Assembly: GCA_030248295.1 (NCBI GenBank)
Contig: JASANH010001518.1
Span: 310,001 to 374,000, forward strand
Length of the DNA: 64,000 bases
Direction of reading: 5' to 3'
Source: Mesodorylaimus sp. YZB2_4
Taxonomy: Eukaryota > Nematoda > Enoplea > Dorylaimida > Dorylaimidae
Position numbers and translations under genes: made by a program. Within the stretch, counting starts at the first letter, position 1. Every line of letters starts with the position of its first letter. Below, piece after piece: positions 34,638 through 54,492 of this stretch. The notes under the pieces were generated by a model. That model was given only the letters and a program-made list of their open reading frames with translations, was not told where the DNA came from and did no database searches.

Positions 34638-37600
34638 ATGGAGACCCGTTCGAGGTCTCATTATGATCCGTTAGATGAGGCTGTGTGCACGGGTATGTTT
34701 CAGGGTTCTTTAAGGAATCCATTTTTGGTGGGAAGATTTCTGCGTGCAAATAAGGTTATTGGTTCGTGACCCACAAAAGGAGCCGCTAGTTGCAGGGGAT
34801 CGTTACACTGACAGTACTTTTCAGATTGACGCAGGGCCAATGGCGACTATTACGGGCCAAGAAGGAACGACCTGCACAACGGTCGGCAACATTCGATTGC
34901 GATTCGCGTCATTGAACAGTAATTTCGATTCGGCCTACAGTTCGGACGAGTCGCCGACGTTGATCAGTCCTCTGCGGTGTGGTCGCTGTCGTACGATCCC
35001 AGCTCAGGCCGTCGATCGACGTCGCCTGCCTTGTGGTCATTTCTTCTGTGCTCCTTGCTCAACTTCTTCCACACCCGATCATTCTTTGACTCTATATTGC
35101 CCACTTTGCGGTGATCAAAGTATTGCGCCCTACGAGACCGACACTTGTTGCATGACCACTCGTCCGCCCATTCACACAATGCTCGCCAATGTAATACCTG
35201 AGGAGGAGGGAAGGCAGACGGTCAAAGAAGCATGGACCCGTCTGCAGACATTCTCCGAGGCGTGCAGGCGTCGAATCGATGACGTGAATCGTGATCGACG
35301 ATTCCATTCGCCCACTCGCTCCTCAGACACGGTATCCAATATATCCGAGTGGGAAGAACTAGAAGACAGTTTGACCACTGTTGTAACTTTGTTGAAAAAG
35401 CAGGAAACCAACGACAGGACAAAACGAATTCTGGCCGACCTGCGCACTTACGAGAATCGATTGCAGAATATCCTGTCGCGTTTGAATTCCCCCGATGCCT
35501 CGCCCGAAGAAGCCGAAGGTTGGCGAAGGTCATTCTCCGATGCAAAGTCCATCCTTCGCACTTTATCGACCAGGGCAAAATTGGAATCTCAGAGGTTAGA
35601 GAACGAGCAAAAGCCTTGGGCGGCGAGGAGGACCACCTTGGCTTCCGTAAGCAACGGGGCATTGGCCGATACTTACGCCATGCTGAACGGTATCGGCGCC
35701 CCTTCTAGCAGCTCCCCCCAATCGCCTTGGACTATCTCAGTGAGCGGCGAAGGAGCGACAAGATGTCGTCGAAATGCAAAGAACAGTTTGACAGTGACTG
35801 CCAAAAAAGCCAGTGGTGACCCTGTCCATTTGGACCGCTCCCATTTGGCAGCCTATATTGTGTCAGCGTCGTCTGGAAAACGTGCGGCGGTGGTGGCAGT
35901 CCGAGAGACGTCTTCTCCTGGCACTTACGAGCTGACCTATTACGTAAATCGAGAAGGGGCTTATCACTTGGTGATTAAGTTCGCGGGGCAGCACATTGGC
36001 GGCAGTCCCTTCCCCATTCGATGCGCTGGTGACGACAGTGGATATTACTATTACAATGGCACCCGCACAAGTGCTTGCAGCGTGCACTCGAGTGGCCCAC
36101 TGAGCGGATCGAGAGCAGCCTCTGGATCATCGGGGGGTATGGGACGAGGCAGCAGTGTGGGCATTGGCAGGAGAACAACTACGACCACGTTCAGTAGTGG
36201 TCCGAGTAGAACTCAGAGCAAGTCTCCCAGCCGACGTCGTGTCCCCATCGAGGACGATATGCTCATGTTATGCGGTTCACACGGACGCAGTTTCGGACAG
36301 TTCTCCAACCCTCAGGGTATCTGTTGCACACCCGACGGTCGTGTGATCGTGGCCGACAGTAACAACCAATGCGTACAAGTCTTCGATCTCCAAACGGGCG
36401 ACTGTAAACTGCGCTTTGGTAAACGAGGTCGATCAGCTGGCGAATTACAGCGACCAACTGGTGTGGCCGTACTGCCCACATCTGGTAACATCCTGGTTGC
36501 TGATTACGATAACCGCTGGGTCAGTGTACACGATCCCAACGGCAAATACCTGGGTCGATTCGGCTGTGGCAAGTTGTTGGGTCCACGTGGCATCGCCATC
36601 GATCGCGACGATCACGTCATCCTCGTGGATAACAAGGCGAGCACGATACTAGTCTACGATTTGCACAAACTAAAGTTCTCGCATCAATTCGGATCGAGGG
36701 GTGATCGACTGGAACAACTGGCAGGGCCGCATTACTGTGCCGTTAATCCGTTGAGTAATTATTTGTATTTGACCGATTTCCATCATCATTGTGTCAAAGT
36801 GTTCGATTGCCGAGGTGGCTTCCAGTTCGCATTTGGATCGCTGGGAGAAGGCAATGGTCAATTCCAAGCTCCGACTGGGATCGCCATTGATCATAATCAG
36901 AATGTGCTGGTCGCCGATTGGGGAAATAGCCGAATACAGGTACGTGCCACGTGTGACAGTGACAGTCAGGACAATTCTACAGTACGGGAAATACCCAGTT
37001 GCGCCGCTTACAAGTTGCGCCGTTCGGATTGCGCCGTTTCACTTGCGCCGTTTCCTGATTGCGCCGTTTTGTGTTGCGCCAATTCATAATTGCACCGCTT
37101 TGAGTTGCGCTTGTCACTAATTGCGCTGATTTCTCAGGTTGGATTGAAACCTCTCTGGGCCCGGCATCGAACGATCCAACCCTAGGTCTGGATGCCGATC
37201 CGATTCGGCCAATCCGCTCCAAAAGAATTTAGATTGATGGGGATGACGCACCAGTACTTGGCACTGCGTCCTCACCAACCTGCTCTGTTTCCTCGCTGTC
37301 ACTCTGTCAGTCCACTCTAAAGGACGAAGGGAGGAGAAAGCAGCTGAGCCTAAAGTGGGACTGAATGCTATTTTGAGAGAAAAAAACGGGATTTTCTCAT
37401 CATAGTATGCCACACCTTATCATTCTTCGGCAGATACAGAGCGTAAAATTTCACTTGCCGATCCGGCCGATCCAGCGGTCGGATCGGAACGGATCGGGAA
37501 CCGATCAACCCCTCGGATCGCTCCGGCCGGATCGGTCAATGCTGGCTCTGGGCCGCAAAGATTCGTGATCAGTGCTCATACTGTGGGTATGAGCACTGAT

Positions 37601-38766
37601 CACGAATTATGAGCTCAAATTTTGATGGCTTGCTCAAGAACCTATCAAAAATTTCATTGCAGAAACGCAGCTTTTTTAGCATCGCGTCTAGTAGAGACCT
37701 GATCATAACCGGCCGAAAGCTTTCCTTTCATCAGGATTATTACAAGGTTAGATGATGTGCGAGTAAACACAGGCAATTACCACAAACTGCTATACCACTC
37801 TATGACCCGGCTCAATCAAAGAGCGGCGCAACAGAAAGAAGCGCAATTCGGGGTCGGCGAAACTAGGACATGGCGCAAACCAAAACAGCGCAAATAGGTC
37901 AGCGCTACTAGAAACGGCGCAATCAGGAACGGCTCAACTGGCCTACACCCCTACAGTACATATACCTTCGCTGCCTATCGTTGGTACCGTAACAATTGGG
38001 CTGGTCAGGGATCGAGGCCGTACGCTCAACCAATGCCCCCCCTGACTCTCTTGCGAGAGTACCACCAAAAAAGTACACTTCTAGCAGATACTTTCTCCTA
38101 TGCCAGCATCGACTGTCCGATTAAATCGGATTGGATCATGCGCCTGGATGCTTGATCTGCCGCTGGGACTGGCGGATCAGTTCGGCTTGATCGGATCTTG
38201 AGCCTGGATCCCGATCCGGCCGAACTGATCCGCCAATCTCAAAGATCCCGAGGTCCCCCAGTCCCGGACCAATCAGACTGCTGGATCGACAATTCACATT
38301 TCCGCACATTACCTGCCAGGAACTATTGTGCATGGCATACTGCATGAGCAGGTCCCATTTTTTTCTCCAAAATCCGCTCTAAGCTCTGGTCGGTTGTCCT
38401 GTGCCCCATTGGAGGGAGGAAACAATCATTTTTTAGATGGCATGGTGTCAGCTACCTCATCGCTGCTGATATTAATCGGATGGGATCAGTCGATGACTCA
38501 GCTCCCCCAAACCCATTCCAGAATGTTAATTGCAGCACACTGGCACACTGTTCTGCTCTTTCAGGTATTCGACCATTCCGGTTCCTTTTTATCGTACGTC
38601 AACAGCGGTGCTCATGCCTTGTTCGGTAAGCCAGGTCTTTTCCCATTTTTCTGCTCTTCATTCCCTTCTTTTAGGCCCGCAAGGCGTGGCAATGACACCT
38701 GATGGAAACGTTGCTATCGCAGACACCGGCAACCACTGCTACAAAATTTATCGCTTCTTATCTTGA
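34638..38766 (+). CDS. TRIM2/3: TRIM2/TRIM3-like RING-filamin-NHL protein
   Basis: Probable RING E3 ubiquitin ligase of the TRIM-NHL family. Main exons: up to 36939, 38565-38625 and 38675-38766. The start is either ATG 34840 (750 aa, acceptor at 34824) or ATG 34638 (exon 34638-34692 joined to 34796, phase 1, 783 aa). Numbered from 34840, a C3HC4 RING uses C47, C50, C65, H67, C70, C73, C87 and C90. A helical coiled-coil region follows at about 150-285. A filamin-type Ig domain lies at about 297-397 (ends GGSPFPIRCAGDD). A Ser/Arg-rich linker then leads to NHL repeats from about 473 (GQFSNPQGICCTPDGRVIVA) to the C-terminus. The last exons read GPQGVAMTPDGNVAIADTGN and end YKIYRFLS, closely like the vertebrate TRIM2/TRIM3 terminus. 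I find no B-box Cys/His array between RING and coiled coil, unusual for the family. The 1.6-kb intron hosts a foldback element. Confidence 0.92.
36986..37950. mobile_element. Foldback-type element: two opposed 9-unit arrays, 9-bp flanking repeats
   Basis: The left arm holds nine copies of a TTGCGCCG-type unit starting at 36999, 37015, 37029, 37043, 37059, 37074, 37090, 37105 and 37121 (14-16 bp apart). The right arm holds nine inverted copies (CGGCGCAA-type) at 37808, 37824, 37839, 37855, 37871, 37886, 37900, 37915 and 37930. Outside each array lie exactly 13 bp that share GGG...CCAG as inverted ends. Outside these, CTACAGTAC is present on both sides (36977-36985 and 37951-37959), consistent with a 9-bp target duplication. 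The arms plus 9-bp duplication recall Drosophila FB and Mutator-like foldback elements. The interior has no long open frame but contains a perfect hairpin. Located in the intron of the TRIM-NHL gene. Confidence 0.75.
37561..37607. repeat. Perfect 21-bp inverted repeat with 5-bp loop
   Basis: Bases 37561-37581 are the exact reverse complement of 37587-37607, with TGTGG as the loop. It lies close to the middle of the foldback element and would form a stable cruciform or RNA hairpin. Confidence 0.9.
38103..38270. repeat. GATC-rich palindromic cluster
   Basis: The stretch is dense in GGATCGG, CGATCC and GATCCG words and includes a perfect 17-bp inverted repeat (38170-38186 with 38219-38235, arm TGGCGGATCAGTTCGGC). 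Similar GATCGG clusters occur at 37180-37215 and 37455-37545 in the same intron, suggesting one repeat family. Confidence 0.7.
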
Positions 38767-41794: not shown

Positions 41795-44505
41795 TCACAA
41801 AACTTTTTCTTCTGGTTCTAAGCGAATCAACTTGTTACTATAGTCCGCCAACTCAGCGACTGAAACACGGCCACGTTGGTTGATAAATTTCGCTACGGCT
41901 TTCCATTCTTCGGGTGAAATGTAGATGAATTTGCCCCTGTCATCGATCACACCAGTGATTGCTCCTTCCGATTCCAAGGAACGAATTCTATCGACGACAT
42001 CTTGAGCACGCAATTTGAATTGAGAAGCTAATTCCTCCGTACTGACCACCTAGCAAGGAATACCAGATATTTAGAATAGATAAAGACATCGTTATCCTAA
42101 CTTCACCTTGGCCCTTTTGATGTACTGAATAAATTCTTGAAGAAGGTTCTCTGATTCAAGGCTTTCATCAACGTCGTAGCCTTCTTCCTCGACGGCGAAT
42201 GCTTCCTTTAGTTTCAAGTATTCTTCATGCTCCTTGCGTTCTTGCTCTTCCTTGGCCTTCCTTTCAGCTTCCTCCTTAGCAGCCTCCTCCTCCTTTTCTT
42301 TTTCCTCCTGTTTTCGGCGTTTCTCTTCTCGTTCCTTTTCTCGCTGCTTACGTTCTTCTCGTTCTTGCAGTTCCTACGAAAAAGTTATTTTGAATAAATT
42401 TAATTGGTAGAAGCCAATTCTCTTAATCTCCAACGTCTGCTCAAATTACACGGTGTCCCAAAAGTCTTCATACAACTTTCCTTTTTAATTCGCGCGCTTA
42501 ATAGGCGAGGTAGTGTAAAATTGATGTTATCGCTGGACAGTGTAATGTCTGTGGTGCTAGTCTACCAACAGTAGTTCCCCCTACGGCTGTACTGTTGAAG
42601 CAAGCGTGATGGAATCAGATCGTCATCTTTTAAAGAAATTTCTTGAGAAATTTGCCGAGCCGTAAGATTTGAAAGTGCTGCGAGCCATTCGAAACAAGAC
42701 GCAATCTTGTCTGCTACACAATAAGAATACTACTCGGTACTAGTTCTGTTCAAGACCGACCTCGATCAGGCCGCTCACGTTCAGCACGTACCACATTGCT
42801 GGTCGAAATCTTTAGGAGTCGAGTGCAACAAAATCCTCAACGATCAGTGAGAAACGTGACACCTGAGCATCGCAAATCGATGTCATCTGCTCATCGAGTC
42901 TTGCTAAAGCAACTTCGCTTGAAGGTTTGTAAAACACGCAAGGTTCGTGGTCGACCACCGCTCAGATGGTCGAACAGCTTCATCGATCCAAAGCACTGCT
43001 ATGGCGGTTCGCACCTGAAGATGCTGAAAAAATCATTGTTTTTTATGAGATGCCGTTCTTGGCTCAGCGATGCAAGAACTCCAAAAATTATGTAACCTGA
43101 TCAGTGTCATTCGAAGATATCGCAGACAATATACGAACGGTCCAGCAATTTCAGAGCACGAACTGCATCATGGTGTGGGGGCCATACCCAAAAACAGCAA
43201 ACCTCCACCTGTTTTCACAGATATCGGCGTGGAGATCAACAAGACGCAAGACGAAGAAGAACCCATGCAAAGAGATGTTTTGCCAGATGCCAATCGAGCC
43301 CATCCAGACTAAAATTGGGCGTTCCAGCGAGACTCAGCTCCCTCAAAAATCGCAGAAACAACTCAGGCATGGTGCAGAGCCAGTTCTCCGAATTTTATCG
43401 CCTACTAAAAATTACCCACTCATGGCCATACTTGAAACCTGAAGACTTCCGCGTATGGGCAGTCTCTGACGGGATGGTCAACGAGAATCAGCATCGAATC
43501 ATCGATTCGTTTAAGCGGCATTTGGTGAACGAATGGGAAGAATTATCCATGAATATTGCGCGTGCTACGACTGATAGTTAGACTGACCGACTGAAGTTAG
43601 CTGTGCTCGCAAAAAAAGGCAGATTCAAAGATTTCTTGAAACAAGCTATACATATATGGCTGATAATTCGCGGCTTCAAGTTAAAATACGCTACAACGTT
43701 TCTTCCAGGAGAAAAGCTAAGAAACATTTGTACGAAGACTTTTGGGACAAAGTGTAGATTCAAGACTTGAACCTATTGGCTAGTCAATGATACTTTGTCC
43801 AGCAGCTTACCGCTTCTCTTTGAGCTCGTTTTTCAGCTTTTGCTTGAAGCTTGGCCAGTTTTTTCTTTCCGATTTTCTCATCGCCCATAAAATCCTCGTT
43901 CAAGAGGTCCACTGGTTCATCATCGTCATCATAATAAGGACGAGCAGCTGCTGCTGGAGCACCGCCTCTACGTCGAACATTTTGACCATCTTCGTCACCA
44001 CTACTATCTCCACCAGCTCCAGCCAGTTGATGGCGTCGCCGAGCAGCAACATTCCGCCTGCCACCGACCACTAAAATGCTAACACTTTACGAAAGACTAG
44101 ATACATCAAGACGGCGAATCAGGAGCTTTAAAGCACGCAGGCACAGCCTTACATAATGTGCATATGTAAGAGCCTAATCTCTGAACAACCCCATCTCTCT
44201 CTTTACTATGGGCTGCCTTAGTACATGCTTTTATAAGGTTTAGAACAAGAATTCCTGACTGAGACCAGTCTCATCATCATTTTTATATCACTTCTATGAC
44301 ACGTAGCTTACTCAATACAGACAAAGCTTGTTGTAACAAGACAACACTTACCAACTGGAGCCCGACGCTGAGGCTGCGGTCTTTCGGCAGCACCCTCCTC
44401 GCGACCTTCATTCCGTTGGCCACCAAATAATTTGAAAGCGCGCAGCGAAAGAAGAAGTAGCAGAACTATAATAATGGCAGAACAACATAAAATTATTGGA
44501 TCCAT
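41795..44505 (-). CDS. DDRGK1: DDRGK domain-containing protein 1 (UFBP1)
   Basis: Endoplasmic-reticulum-anchored adaptor of the UFM1 (ufmylation) pathway that partners UFL1 and recruits substrates. Exons in order: 44352-44505, 43811-44070, 42107-42373 and 41795-42049, giving 311 aa (human 314). The N-terminus is a signal-anchor ([20 protein letters not shown]). It is followed by a low-complexity Arg/Gly and acidic segment ([20 protein letters not shown]), then a long Lys/Glu/Arg coiled coil (about 139-200), then the PCI/winged-helix domain. The eponymous DDRGK motif is at residues 263-267 inside [18 protein letters not shown]. The start codon directly follows a TTTGCAG acceptor, so no cis 5'UTR lies in this exon. 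The large second intron (42374-43810) is almost wholly a mariner element. Identity is secure. Confidence 0.95.
42449..43754 (+). mobile_element. Degenerate mariner transposon
   Basis: Both ends are preceded or followed by the TA target dinucleotide (42447-42448; 43755-43756). The inverted repeats share GTCCCAAAAGTCTTC plus flanking CACnnT and TACAA, about 27 bp with a few mismatches. The 1,306-bp length is normal for mariner. The plus-strand transposase is decayed: an ATG at 42609 ([12 protein letters not shown]) reaches a stop within about 20 codons. Recognisable later pieces are the DRPRSGR linker with the adjacent helix-turn-helix region, and the C-terminal [12 protein letters not shown], equivalent to the WPPQSPDLNP/DFWLW region. 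Inserted in the DDRGK1 intron, transcriptionally opposite. Confidence 0.9.
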
Positions 44506-45129: not shown

Positions 45130-45399
45130 TCACAGTTTCTCCCACTCGTCCTCACTCCTCTCAGTGAGATCACTGGTTGGTGTGGTCGGGGCGGACAAGA
45201 CAGCCTGCAAGTCCCAAATGTAGTCAATAACGTGTTGTAGAAGATCGACCATCGACAGTCGCTGTTGTCCGTTCTTTGGGATAGTCGGAACCAGTTCCAA
45301 CAGCTGATTCACCGTCTCGGCCACGTCAGGTTGAGACGACTGGCCAGGCTGGTCCTTGCAAGTCGAACTTTGAGATACCGATTTCTCGTCTTGGACCAT
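45130..45399 (-). CDS. Id: Id/extramacrochaetae-type HLH repressor, paralog 1
   Basis: Small dominant-negative helix-loop-helix protein (89 aa, single exon seen) expected to bind E proteins and other bHLH factors and block DNA binding. The HLH runs ETVNQLLELVPTIPK, then LSMVDLLQHVIDYIWDLQAV. LVPTIP and LLQHVIDYI..LQ are hallmarks of Id proteins, and no basic DNA-binding region precedes helix 1. The start is ATG 45399; a GTG just upstream is not needed. The N-terminus is short and Ser/Gln-rich. An upstream exon cannot be excluded. A similar gene lies 3.9 kb away on the same strand. Confidence 0.85.
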   Translation of the reverse strand: MVQDEKSVSQSSTCKDQPGQSSQPDVAETVNQLLELVPTIPKNGQQRLSMVDLLQHVIDYIWDLQAVLSAPTTPTSDLTERSEDEWEKL

Positions 45400-45892
45400 C
45401 ACGGATCGACGGGCGATCGTCGAAGCGAATGAGTCAGCAGTGGCAGATAGGAATAACTGGCACTGGCACAGTTCACTAGTCCGCGAGGCCCTGGCCTGGA
45501 AGACTGAGTGAAATAGAGCTTATTAAGCCAACCCAATCTCCCCGATTCTACTTCAAATAATAAACTGCTAGTCCAGTCGGTCGTGACACGGTTCACGACT
45601 AACAACGGGTCGATTCGTAAAATCACTTTTATGGCAAAATCGTTCTTTTTGAAAAGTTTTTAGACCACAGAAATCCGCCTTCACCTCCGCTCGCTTCCAA
45701 GACGGTGGAATGGAATGAAACGGTGGTCGCTCGTCCACGGCAGACACTTGGCGCGCCAGAGCGGATGGTTGACACGCCTCCCCAGTCGTATTGTGGATGG
45801 GTAGTTTGGGCGAGGGGAGACAAGTATGATTGGTTTCGTGTTTTACCTATTTGTCGATTGACTGTTGGATGACAAGCTGACCGTGAAAACAT

Positions 45893-49309: not shown

Positions 49310-49657
49310 CTAGGGTTCTCGGTCCTCGGCTACAGTCAAAGGATCGTTCAACTGTCGTTGTAGCTCCACGATATAATCGATAACGTGTTGCAATAGTTCG
49401 AACCTGGAAACCTGTTCGTCCTTTGGCACAGTGGGAACCAGTTGTTTCAATTGTCCTATCGTTTCTACAGTTTGTTTTCGTTCTCGCCACGAACGCGATG
49501 CTTTGACCAACTTGGACTTGTTGGAAATACACGTGACTGATCTGGAGACGGAACGACGGTATCGACGCCTCGTATGGAAAGTGGCGGAGACCAGGTTGGG
49601 GACATCCATCGTAAGATGATGGCTGGTTGATGCAAGTTGGTCGATGATGGGATTCAT
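49310..49657 (-). CDS. Id: Id/extramacrochaetae-type HLH repressor, paralog 2
   Basis: Encodes 115 aa from ATG 49657 in one exon. The HLH reads QTVETIGQLKQLVPTVPKDE, then VSRFELLQHVIDYIVELQRQ, an Id signature. A basic stretch (HTRRRYRRSVSRS) sits well upstream of helix 1 but is not in the position or form of a bHLH basic region. It shares LVPT.PK and LLQHVIDYI with paralog 1 but differs elsewhere, so the duplication is old. The 1.3 kb upstream (49.88-51.17 kb) holds seven CAGCTG E-boxes. Confidence 0.85.
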   Translation of the reverse strand: MNPIIDQLASTSHHLTMDVPNLVSATFHTRRRYRRSVSRSVTCISNKSKLVKASRSWRERKQTVETIGQLKQLVPTVPKDEQVSRFELLQHVIDYIVELQRQLNDPLTVAEDREP

Positions 49658-49878
49658 GTTTTCTCCGTTGTAAATCCAATACGGCTAATGAATTCGTGGA
49701 CGGGAACACGAATGAAGACTGTTCAGAAACAGAGGGAATCGTCGACTGGGGATCGGTTGTACAGCAGATGGCCGAGGCAGAAGGTGCCAGCACAATATCC
49801 AATCTCAGTGGACGAAAAAATTACGTCGTTCAGGCTTGGACTAAGATCACCAAATTGGAATTGGACTGAGCCGAACGG

Positions 49879-53059: not shown

Positions 53060-54492
53060 AAACAAAATGGAGCAGACAGTTCGCACAGCATCAACTAATT
53101 TCGTGGCGGAGGCTTCGGACGAAGTCAACCGAATCTTTGGTGAAAATCGATACTCAAGTTGGAGGAGACGGATACGAATTACCATCCTCTGCATAAGATT
53201 TGTGGCCAAGGTGAACATACGATTTGTGGCCAAGGTGAGGGGGAAGAGACGATCCTGCAGCAAAGGAGGCGTATTGGAACCATCGACGCCAGAAGAGATC
53301 GATGTGGCGGAGAAGTTATGGTTCAAAGCGATGCAGGCAAAGTATTTACCAGACGAGGTGGTGCGCCTGAAGAGGGTGCAAGTCGATTAGAAGGCAGTTC
53401 TCCTCAACAATGCAATACCGCTTCTATTAGATGAAGATGGCATTATTCGATGCGGTGGTAGAATTGGGCGAGCTCAAATCTCAATTGAACCGATCAATCC
53501 TATACTCCTTCCAAAGAAGTCAAAGTTCACCCACCTGGTGATCAAAGAAGCTCATGAACAAACGATGCATAGCGGCATATCGCACACCCTGGCTCAACTT
53601 CGAATGCGATTCTGAGTTCCAACAGGGCGAGCAGAAGTCAATCGAGTAACCAGAAGATGCGGTGTCTGTCGTCGATGGGACGGTGGACCCTGCAAGCCTC
53701 CTCCAATGCCAGACTTGCCAAAGCCACGAGTCCAAGAATCAAAGGCGTTCTCCCACGTGGGCATCGATTACTTCGGCCCGCTCTACACAAGAGACAAGGG
53801 GTGCCAGCCGAAGAAAAAATGGATCAGCATTGTCGCGTGTAGTTACTCGAGCGATCTATTTGGAACTAATCGATGATATGACAAGCAAACAACTACTTCT
53901 GGGCCTACAACGATTCATCGCCCGCCGAGGATTGCCAGAGCTCATAATCTCTGACCATGGAGGCAACTTTAAATAAAAGGAAATTCAAGAGTACGCCAGT
54001 CGACTCAAAATAAAATGGAACTTCATCACCGAACGATCGCCATGGAAAGGTGGCTTCTATGAGCGGCTGATTCGATTGGTCAAGCAAGCGTTCCGGAAAT
54101 CGATACAATCGATCATGTTATCAACGAGCCAAATGGCTACGGTGTTGGCTGAAATCGAATCAATGATTAATCAAAGGCCAATCACCTACGTCGACAACGA
54201 CCTACGCGGTGGTACGATCCTTTCCCCCGCCTGTTTCATCACGCCGCCAACAATCAATGGATCAATTGAATCAGAGCCCATCCTTCCTGAATCAATCGAA
54301 TCAATGGGTACGCGCAAGGCGCTACTAGAACGGTGGAAGAAGCGAGTTCAATATCTAAAGCAATTCTGGGCTGTTTGGTCTAAGCAATACCTCCTGGCCC
54401 TACGGGAGCGGCAACAAACGACTATCAAGCATCCACGCTCAAGCCCCAATCCATGGCCTACAGGTTTATTCTTGCGCATAGAACCATCATAA
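53060..54492 (+). mobile_element. BEL/Pao retrotransposon remnant (integrase region)
   Basis: Decayed pol 3' half spread over several frames with stops. In order: a segment before the zinc finger (YSSWRRRIRI, then PEEIDVAEKLWFKAMQAKYL); an HHCC zinc finger (HEQTMHSGISHTLAQLRMRF, then CGVC); and an integrase core with FSHVGIDYFGPL (first Asp), LIISDHGGNFK (second Asp) and GGFYERLIRLVKQAFRK (Glu). After that come NQRPITYVDNDL and the C-terminal FWAVWSKQYLLALRERQQT, typical of Pao elements. No protease or reverse transcriptase and no LTRs were found. A 24-bp tandem duplication lies at 53197-53238. Non-functional. Confidence 0.9.

Follow-up and report, generated by a model that had tools for sequence, protein, structure and literature searches.

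A 965 bp transposon copy was identified in a 64,000 nucleotide stretch of the genome of the nematode Mesodorylaimus sp. YZB2_4 (contig JASANH010001518.1, positions 310,001 to 374,000, here called the window). The genome gives 133 matches for cuticle collagen, as expected of a nematode, and none for a 22-mer of the SL1 leader. The element lies on the forward strand at 36986..37950, within an intron of a TRIM-NHL-like gene. It is very likely that it is a non-autonomous member of the Mutator superfamily of the Phantom type, resembling a miniature inverted-repeat transposable element (MITE) and having Foldback-like array termini, and that it is moved by a transposase with FLYWCH and Mutator-like element (MULE) domains. 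What was a sequence curiosity is now a placed mobile element with a coding partner, and the same genome has several related families with the same end plan and different units.

Structure and dispersed copies of the element

The borders of the element are those common to its dispersed copies, 27 of which have two ends and were examined. It begins with a 13 bp left tip, GGGAAATACCCAG (36986..36998, + strand), followed by the left array of nine units with the core TTGCGCCG at a spacing of 14 to 16 bp (36999..37128, + strand). The right array has nine units in mirror orientation (37808..37937, - strand) and is followed by the 13 bp right tip, GGGTGTAGGCCAG when read inward (37938..37950, - strand), of which bases 4 to 9 are unlike the left tip. 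When up to 2 mismatches in 8 are allowed, the cores start at 14, 30, 44, 58, 74, 89, 105, 120, and 136 from the left tip and, on the reverse complement, at 14, 29, 44, 58, 73, 89, 105, 120, and 136 from the right tip. The two sets of starts agree within one base, with units of about 15 bp, and relaxing the scan to 3 mismatches adds one doubtful match, at 145 in the left end. A first-pass annotation, made from the sequence of the window, had described nine units facing nine mirror units with 13 bp to each tip, which is just what the core scan returns.

The same annotation held that the symmetry of the arrays argues against chance. The TTGCGCCG 8-mer itself is unremarkable in the window, with 57 matches against 52 expected; the remarkable feature is the clustering of the matches, not their number. 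When the whole 64 kb was scanned in 150 bp segments with a step of 10, at 1 or fewer mismatches, the six densest segments were all over the left array (+ strand) and the right array (- strand).

The element is flanked by an exact 9 bp repeat, CTACAGTAC, at 36977..36985 and 37951..37959. This word is over-represented in the window, with 24 matches at 1 or fewer mismatches against 7.2 expected, and therefore the flanking pair alone proves nothing. Eleven of the 24 sites, including the two borders of the element itself, were inspected by eye and showed no larger shared repeat around these words. The pair is a true target-site duplication because other copies carry different duplications at the same two borders.

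When the genome was searched with the left end, there were 41 match rows among the best 40 of 71 candidates, and 35 of these rows begin at query base 1 to 12, the tip of the element being base 10. The right end gave 41 rows among the best 40 of 61 candidates. A 19-base pattern, made of the left tip and the start of unit 1, was found at 44 places in the genome with 2 or fewer mismatches (29 exact, 8 with one, and 7 with two), of which a few of the two-mismatch places could be chance matches; the reversed control was found nowhere. At 1 or fewer mismatches there are 37 places. The array ends, which the first-pass annotation had proposed to look for in the genome, are thus dispersed.

The 27 two-ended copies come from 21 of 30 left-end loci and 6 of 19 further stretches. 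The other nine left-end loci lack one end, and in the other 13 further stretches an end is missing, rearranged, or not delimited; 30 right-end loci, mostly the same places, were not part of the tally. One copy is at a contig edge, leaving 26 that could be assessed for duplications. Nineteen have a perfect 8 bp duplication, four (including the copy in the window) have a perfect 9 bp duplication, and three are imperfect, agreeing at 7 of 8 or 8 of 9 bases or being shifted by three bases. A duplication of 9 bp had been predicted and is real for the window copy, but the usual length in the family is 8 bp (19 of 26, against 4 of 26 with 9 bp). It had also been considered that CTACAGTAC might flank the arrays only because TACAGTA is common. 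The word is indeed common in the window, but no two of the 23 perfect duplications are alike.

When the flanks of the copy at locus L013 were joined with one GGCAAGGC, seven places matched across the full 180 bp with 83 to 97% identity, among the best 40 of 294 candidates. Two of these seven candidate empty sites were read and agree at 70 and 69 of the 72 bases surrounding the junction, each with a single GGCAAGGC. These empty sites are paralogous and in the same genome. The joined junction of locus L062 gave some dozen rows matching up to about 40 bp across, with 78 to 83% identity (one 89%); these are C-rich, were judged to be low-complexity matches, and were not counted. The copies, their duplications, the paralogous empty sites, and the coding relatives described below were observed directly, and they point to a mobile element.

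Coding relatives and variation within the family

Two coding relatives, L061 and L062, are 2,265 bp each, are 99.9% identical to one another, and have different 8 bp duplications. Their ends are 88% identical to those of the window element (query 1 to 156 and 817 to 965), and their arrays have the same nine start positions at both ends, with one further weak match on the right side. Matches from a genome-wide search for the MULE family lie inside L061, L062, and L065, the last of which has only its right end recognised. A further relative, L063 (1,709 bp), has an internal deletion. On the minus strand of L061 and L062 there are pieces matching FLYWCH at 24.9 bits (cut-off 23.6) and MULE at 33.1 bits (cut-off 27.6). 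A six-exon model with GT-AG introns, the longest of several obtained with preset anchors and intron lengths, encodes 487 amino acids without a stop. Its MULE match is 41.4 bits and covers positions 2 to 98 of 99. The spliced model aligns along its length with the intronless FLYWCH-MULE frames of four loci from other families, L085, L086, L087, and L089, while that of L088 breaks off. By eye, the presumed D, D, E, H, and W positions are kept in the model and the C, C, H, and H residues of the FLYWCH are present. Only FLYWCH and MULE reached the Pfam cut-off in the L061 pieces and in the model, with no PHD finger among the matches above it. A coding partner for the ends of the window element thus exists, with its transposase gene in pieces, as the first-pass annotation had hoped to find in proposing a partner with matching ends and a MULE transposase.

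The placement in a Mutator-like, Foldback-type family, already suggested in that annotation, agrees with these features. The partners with matching ends carry a MULE/DDE transposase, and the duplications, 23 of 26 being perfect at 8 or 9 bp, are within the 8 to 11 bp of the superfamily. In the available text of PMC6446971, Phantom elements are given duplications of 8 to 10 bp and either no additional domain, FLYWCH, or SWIM. The combination of FLYWCH and MULE is borderline for the window family and clear in five other loci. The long inverted ends built of tandem units are of the Foldback type.

A transposase of the L061 type could be supplied in trans, with its FLYWCH finger binding the TTGCGCCG-type units. 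Nine sites at each end may give specificity and allow several subunits to be loaded. The ends would then be synapsed, and the DDE core would excise the element and insert it where the target strands are cut 8 or 9 bp apart. No published target motif of FLH-1 was found in the available portions of PMC3093354, PMC5081483, PMC12265568, and PMC11223767.

The interior of the element probably has a different history. A segment at 37160..37536 resembles another dispersed repeat, with nine rows of 79 to 85% identity among the best 40 of 786 candidates, and this segment of about 380 bp was probably captured. The repeat itself is some 300 to 350 bp. An origin of the interior in the coding partner was considered and rejected, the likeness to L061 being one weak 20 bp match. 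At 37561..37607 there is a perfect 21 bp palindrome with a 5 bp loop. Of 20 aligned copies, 13 have all 21 positions paired and three have 20 of 21, while in four the palindrome is shortened or broken.

Pairwise divergence among the 20 aligned copies ranges from 0.8% to 5.3%. Counted against the window copy, insertions and deletions are scarcer in the arrays (4 events in 286 bp) than in the interior (29 events in 679 bp; p = 0.03), and the three large ones are of 14, 14, and 29 bp, approximately one or two units. Between the window copy and L061, the cores vary less than the spacers when both ends are pooled (11 of 144 against 22 of 116; p = 0.008).

Several results weigh against the account of the element and its movement given above. 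In the 20 aligned copies the arrays are as variable as the interior (56 of 286 columns against 142 of 679; p = 0.66), so there is no sign of selection keeping the units in these copies. Of ten single-end comparisons of cores with spacers, two had p < 0.05, both for left ends (those of the relatives L061 and L063), and L021 and L064 are among those with no difference. Between the left and right arrays of one element the cores do vary less than the spacers, in 3 of 3 comparisons (p about 1e-5 or less), a circular result because the cores were chosen by likeness. Clear empty sites were found for only one of the eight copies tested, that at L013. In the spliced transposase model the FLYWCH match falls to 20.7 bits, below the 23.6 cut-off that the unspliced piece passes with 24.9. 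Finally, both movement and FLYWCH binding are deduced from sequence.

Other explanations can be offered for the arrays. Their units lie in tandem, and the window is rich in TACAGTA-like words, as would be expected if this were a local satellite or an inverted array born of slippage, never mobile and flanked by chance repeats. There is next to no chance that this is so: the copies are dispersed and have common borders, and both their copy-specific duplications and the empty sites already refute it. A local satellite without dispersed copies is also not compatible with the 44 matches to the left tip. Array termini have arisen in several superfamilies, Galileo with its P-type transposase being one case (available text of PMC3169594), and the element might therefore be Foldback-like but belong to another superfamily (P/Galileo, the Tc1/mariner-like Tc4, or hAT) and be Mutator in looks only. 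That is highly improbable, since the coding relatives with these ends bear FLYWCH and MULE pieces and the duplications of 8 to 9 bp are those reported for MULEs in the available parts of PMC6446971 and PMC5225508. A Tc4-like or Galileo-like element was rejected on both grounds.

The window copy could in addition have been co-opted, with its array or hairpin regulating the TRIM-NHL-like gene through sites for a FLYWCH factor, splicing, or small RNA production. The 5' splice site is 46 bp away from the element, 13 of 20 copies have an intact palindrome, and as RNA the element folds better than 20 of 20 shuffled sequences (z = -8.2). Inverted ends by themselves lead to good folding, however, and the copies vary as much in their arrays as in their interiors, making co-option very unlikely. 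The large pre-mRNA hairpin foreseen in the first-pass annotation is thus upheld as a strong fold for which a role is possible, but no sign of selection for it was found. A Phantom-type element of the Mutator superfamily accounts better for the window copy, which looks like an ordinary intron insertion and is presumably spliced out with the intron and near neutral.

Related elements and other families in the genome

Long, internally repeated inverted ends like those of the window element are known from Drosophila FB. A nematode element with a close likeness is Tm1 of Meloidogyne, which is described in the available text of PMC3169594 as a Mutator/Foldback element of the Phantom subclass in root-knot nematodes. 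It too has composite inverted ends, made of one to nine consecutive units with 14 bp as the commonest length, short outer tips that are asymmetric (CCTACCC in Tm1 A2; CCTACACCC in the window element), and MITE-like copies alongside a 2,593 bp element with FLYWCH and MULE. The two differ in their units (CGATTCAGTATCCGC in Tm1, the TTGCGCCG type here), in their duplications (9 bp in Tm1, mostly 8 bp here), and in their coding copies, Tm1 being reported as inactive, with one element that encodes a transposase, whereas the window family has two that are 99.9% identical. The Tm1 FLYWCH is also described as lacking the last His, while C, C, H, and H are seen by eye in the L061 type. Membership of the Tm1 family was rejected, since its Motif C unit, CGATTCAGTATCCGC, and its tips, CGGTTAA and CCTACCC, are different by eye in that text.

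The Muta1 and Muta5 elements of Aedes aegypti, as presented in the available parts of PMC5225508, have terminal inverted repeats (TIRs) of 145 and 151 bp with nine subterminal repeats, of 12 bp with a 3 to 4 bp spacer or of 15 bp. They share with the window family the duplications of 8 or 9 bp, an N-terminal FLYWCH, and many non-autonomous derivatives with unrelated interiors. Their host is an insect, and the likeness described here is one of architecture. Transposition of Muta1, with 8 or 9 bp duplications, has been proven in yeast, whereas movement of the window family is inferred. Galileo, of the P superfamily, also has long internally repeated inverted ends, and its THAP domain binds tandem repeats in the TIRs (available text of PMC3688188); its transposase is of another superfamily. 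Rehavkus is Mutator-related with a 9 bp duplication and a minisatellite, but in the available text of PMC6446971 it has a PHD finger and the minisatellite is before the 3' TIR, unlike the FLYWCH and the arrays at both ends of the window family. Rehavkus was set aside as a family for the window element, a PHD finger not being among the L061 Pfam matches above cut-off.

No earlier description of a family with the TTGCGCCG unit was found among the papers listed in the literature searches, which did not extend to the repeat libraries Repbase and Dfam. The family therefore appears new by its unit sequence, as the first-pass annotation had supposed, but its architecture is already published for Tm1 and Muta1/Muta5 in the available texts of PMC3169594 and PMC5225508.

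The genome-wide search gave at least 147 MULE matches. From these, five further loci were picked for their score and open frame; they represent four families, L087 and L088 belonging together. Each of the five has arrays as its inverted termini, with sites spaced at 14 to 17 bp, or at 31 to 32 bp where one escaped the strict pattern. The array sites on the left and right number 9 and 10 in L085, 11 and 10 in L086, 5 and 7 in L087, 7 and 7 in L088, and 3 and 6 in L089, so the count of nine is not strict, as seen on the left of L086 and L089. Perfect duplications were found at plausible tips in three of the five (9 bp in L085, and 8 bp in L088 and L089), and none at the tips of L086 and L087. 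FLYWCH and MULE are above cut-offs in all five frames. There are three clearly different units, that of L085, that of L087 and L088, and the nearly alike units of L086 and L089, and all are unlike TTGCGCCG.

The FLYWCH domains of L086 and L089, with nearly the same unit, are 64% identical and the whole proteins 61%, while for L085 and L087, with different units, the values are 43% and 70%. For the remaining four pairs among the intact frames, FLYWCH identity is 38 to 48% against 52 to 53% for the whole protein. Compared with L085, the FLYWCH has a lower identity than the catalytic part at all 31 loci paired by hand (medians of 45% and 65%; rank correlation 0.52), and loci with an L085-like array that are also in the FLYWCH search have a best FLYWCH row of at least 71%. 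It is common for DNA-binding domains to diverge more quickly than catalytic domains, and the co-variation of FLYWCH and unit is therefore only a hint. About ten or more copies in the L085 family have FLYWCH and catalytic parts that are 99 to 100% identical, pointing to a recent spread of that family.

It is possible, though doubtful, that the end array of FLYWCH-MULE elements is a readout code, in which the geometry would have been kept from mosquito to nematode and the unit rewritten in each family together with the FLYWCH finger. The geometry would typically be some nine sites at 14 to 16 bp, or some 145 bp per end, with 3 to 11 sites in the sampled loci. If this were so, one genome would hold a natural set of paired FLYWCH fingers and target arrays. 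By pairing fingers and arrays, the role of the array termini, whether as binding sites, a spacing device, or a by-product of slippage, becomes directly testable.

The host gene and other features of the window

The intron that holds the element, but is not part of it, is at 36940..38564 (+ strand) and has GT-AG ends by eye. An open frame at 34714..37089 (+ strand) contains the host gene's upstream exon, extends beyond the 5' splice site, and is given here as context. This frame has NHL and filamin matches above the Pfam cut-offs and a RING match just under (19.7 against 21 bits), and no B-box was listed in the Pfam scan of it. The large intron of a TRIM-NHL gene named in the first-pass annotation therefore fits. 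Downstream of the element in the same intron, at 38164-38241, is a separate 31 bp inverted repeat, 87% complementary with a 16 bp loop, which has short words in common with the interior of the element.

Elsewhere in the window, resemblances were noted by eye for four open frames. One at 42673-43095 (+ strand) is like a fragment of a mariner-type transposase, and one at 53977-54492 (+ strand) is like a fragment of a BEL/Pao-type retrotransposon. Two others, at 45130-45519 and 49310-49684 (- strand), have a common stretch like the helix-loop-helix of the Id/basic helix-loop-helix (bHLH) kind.

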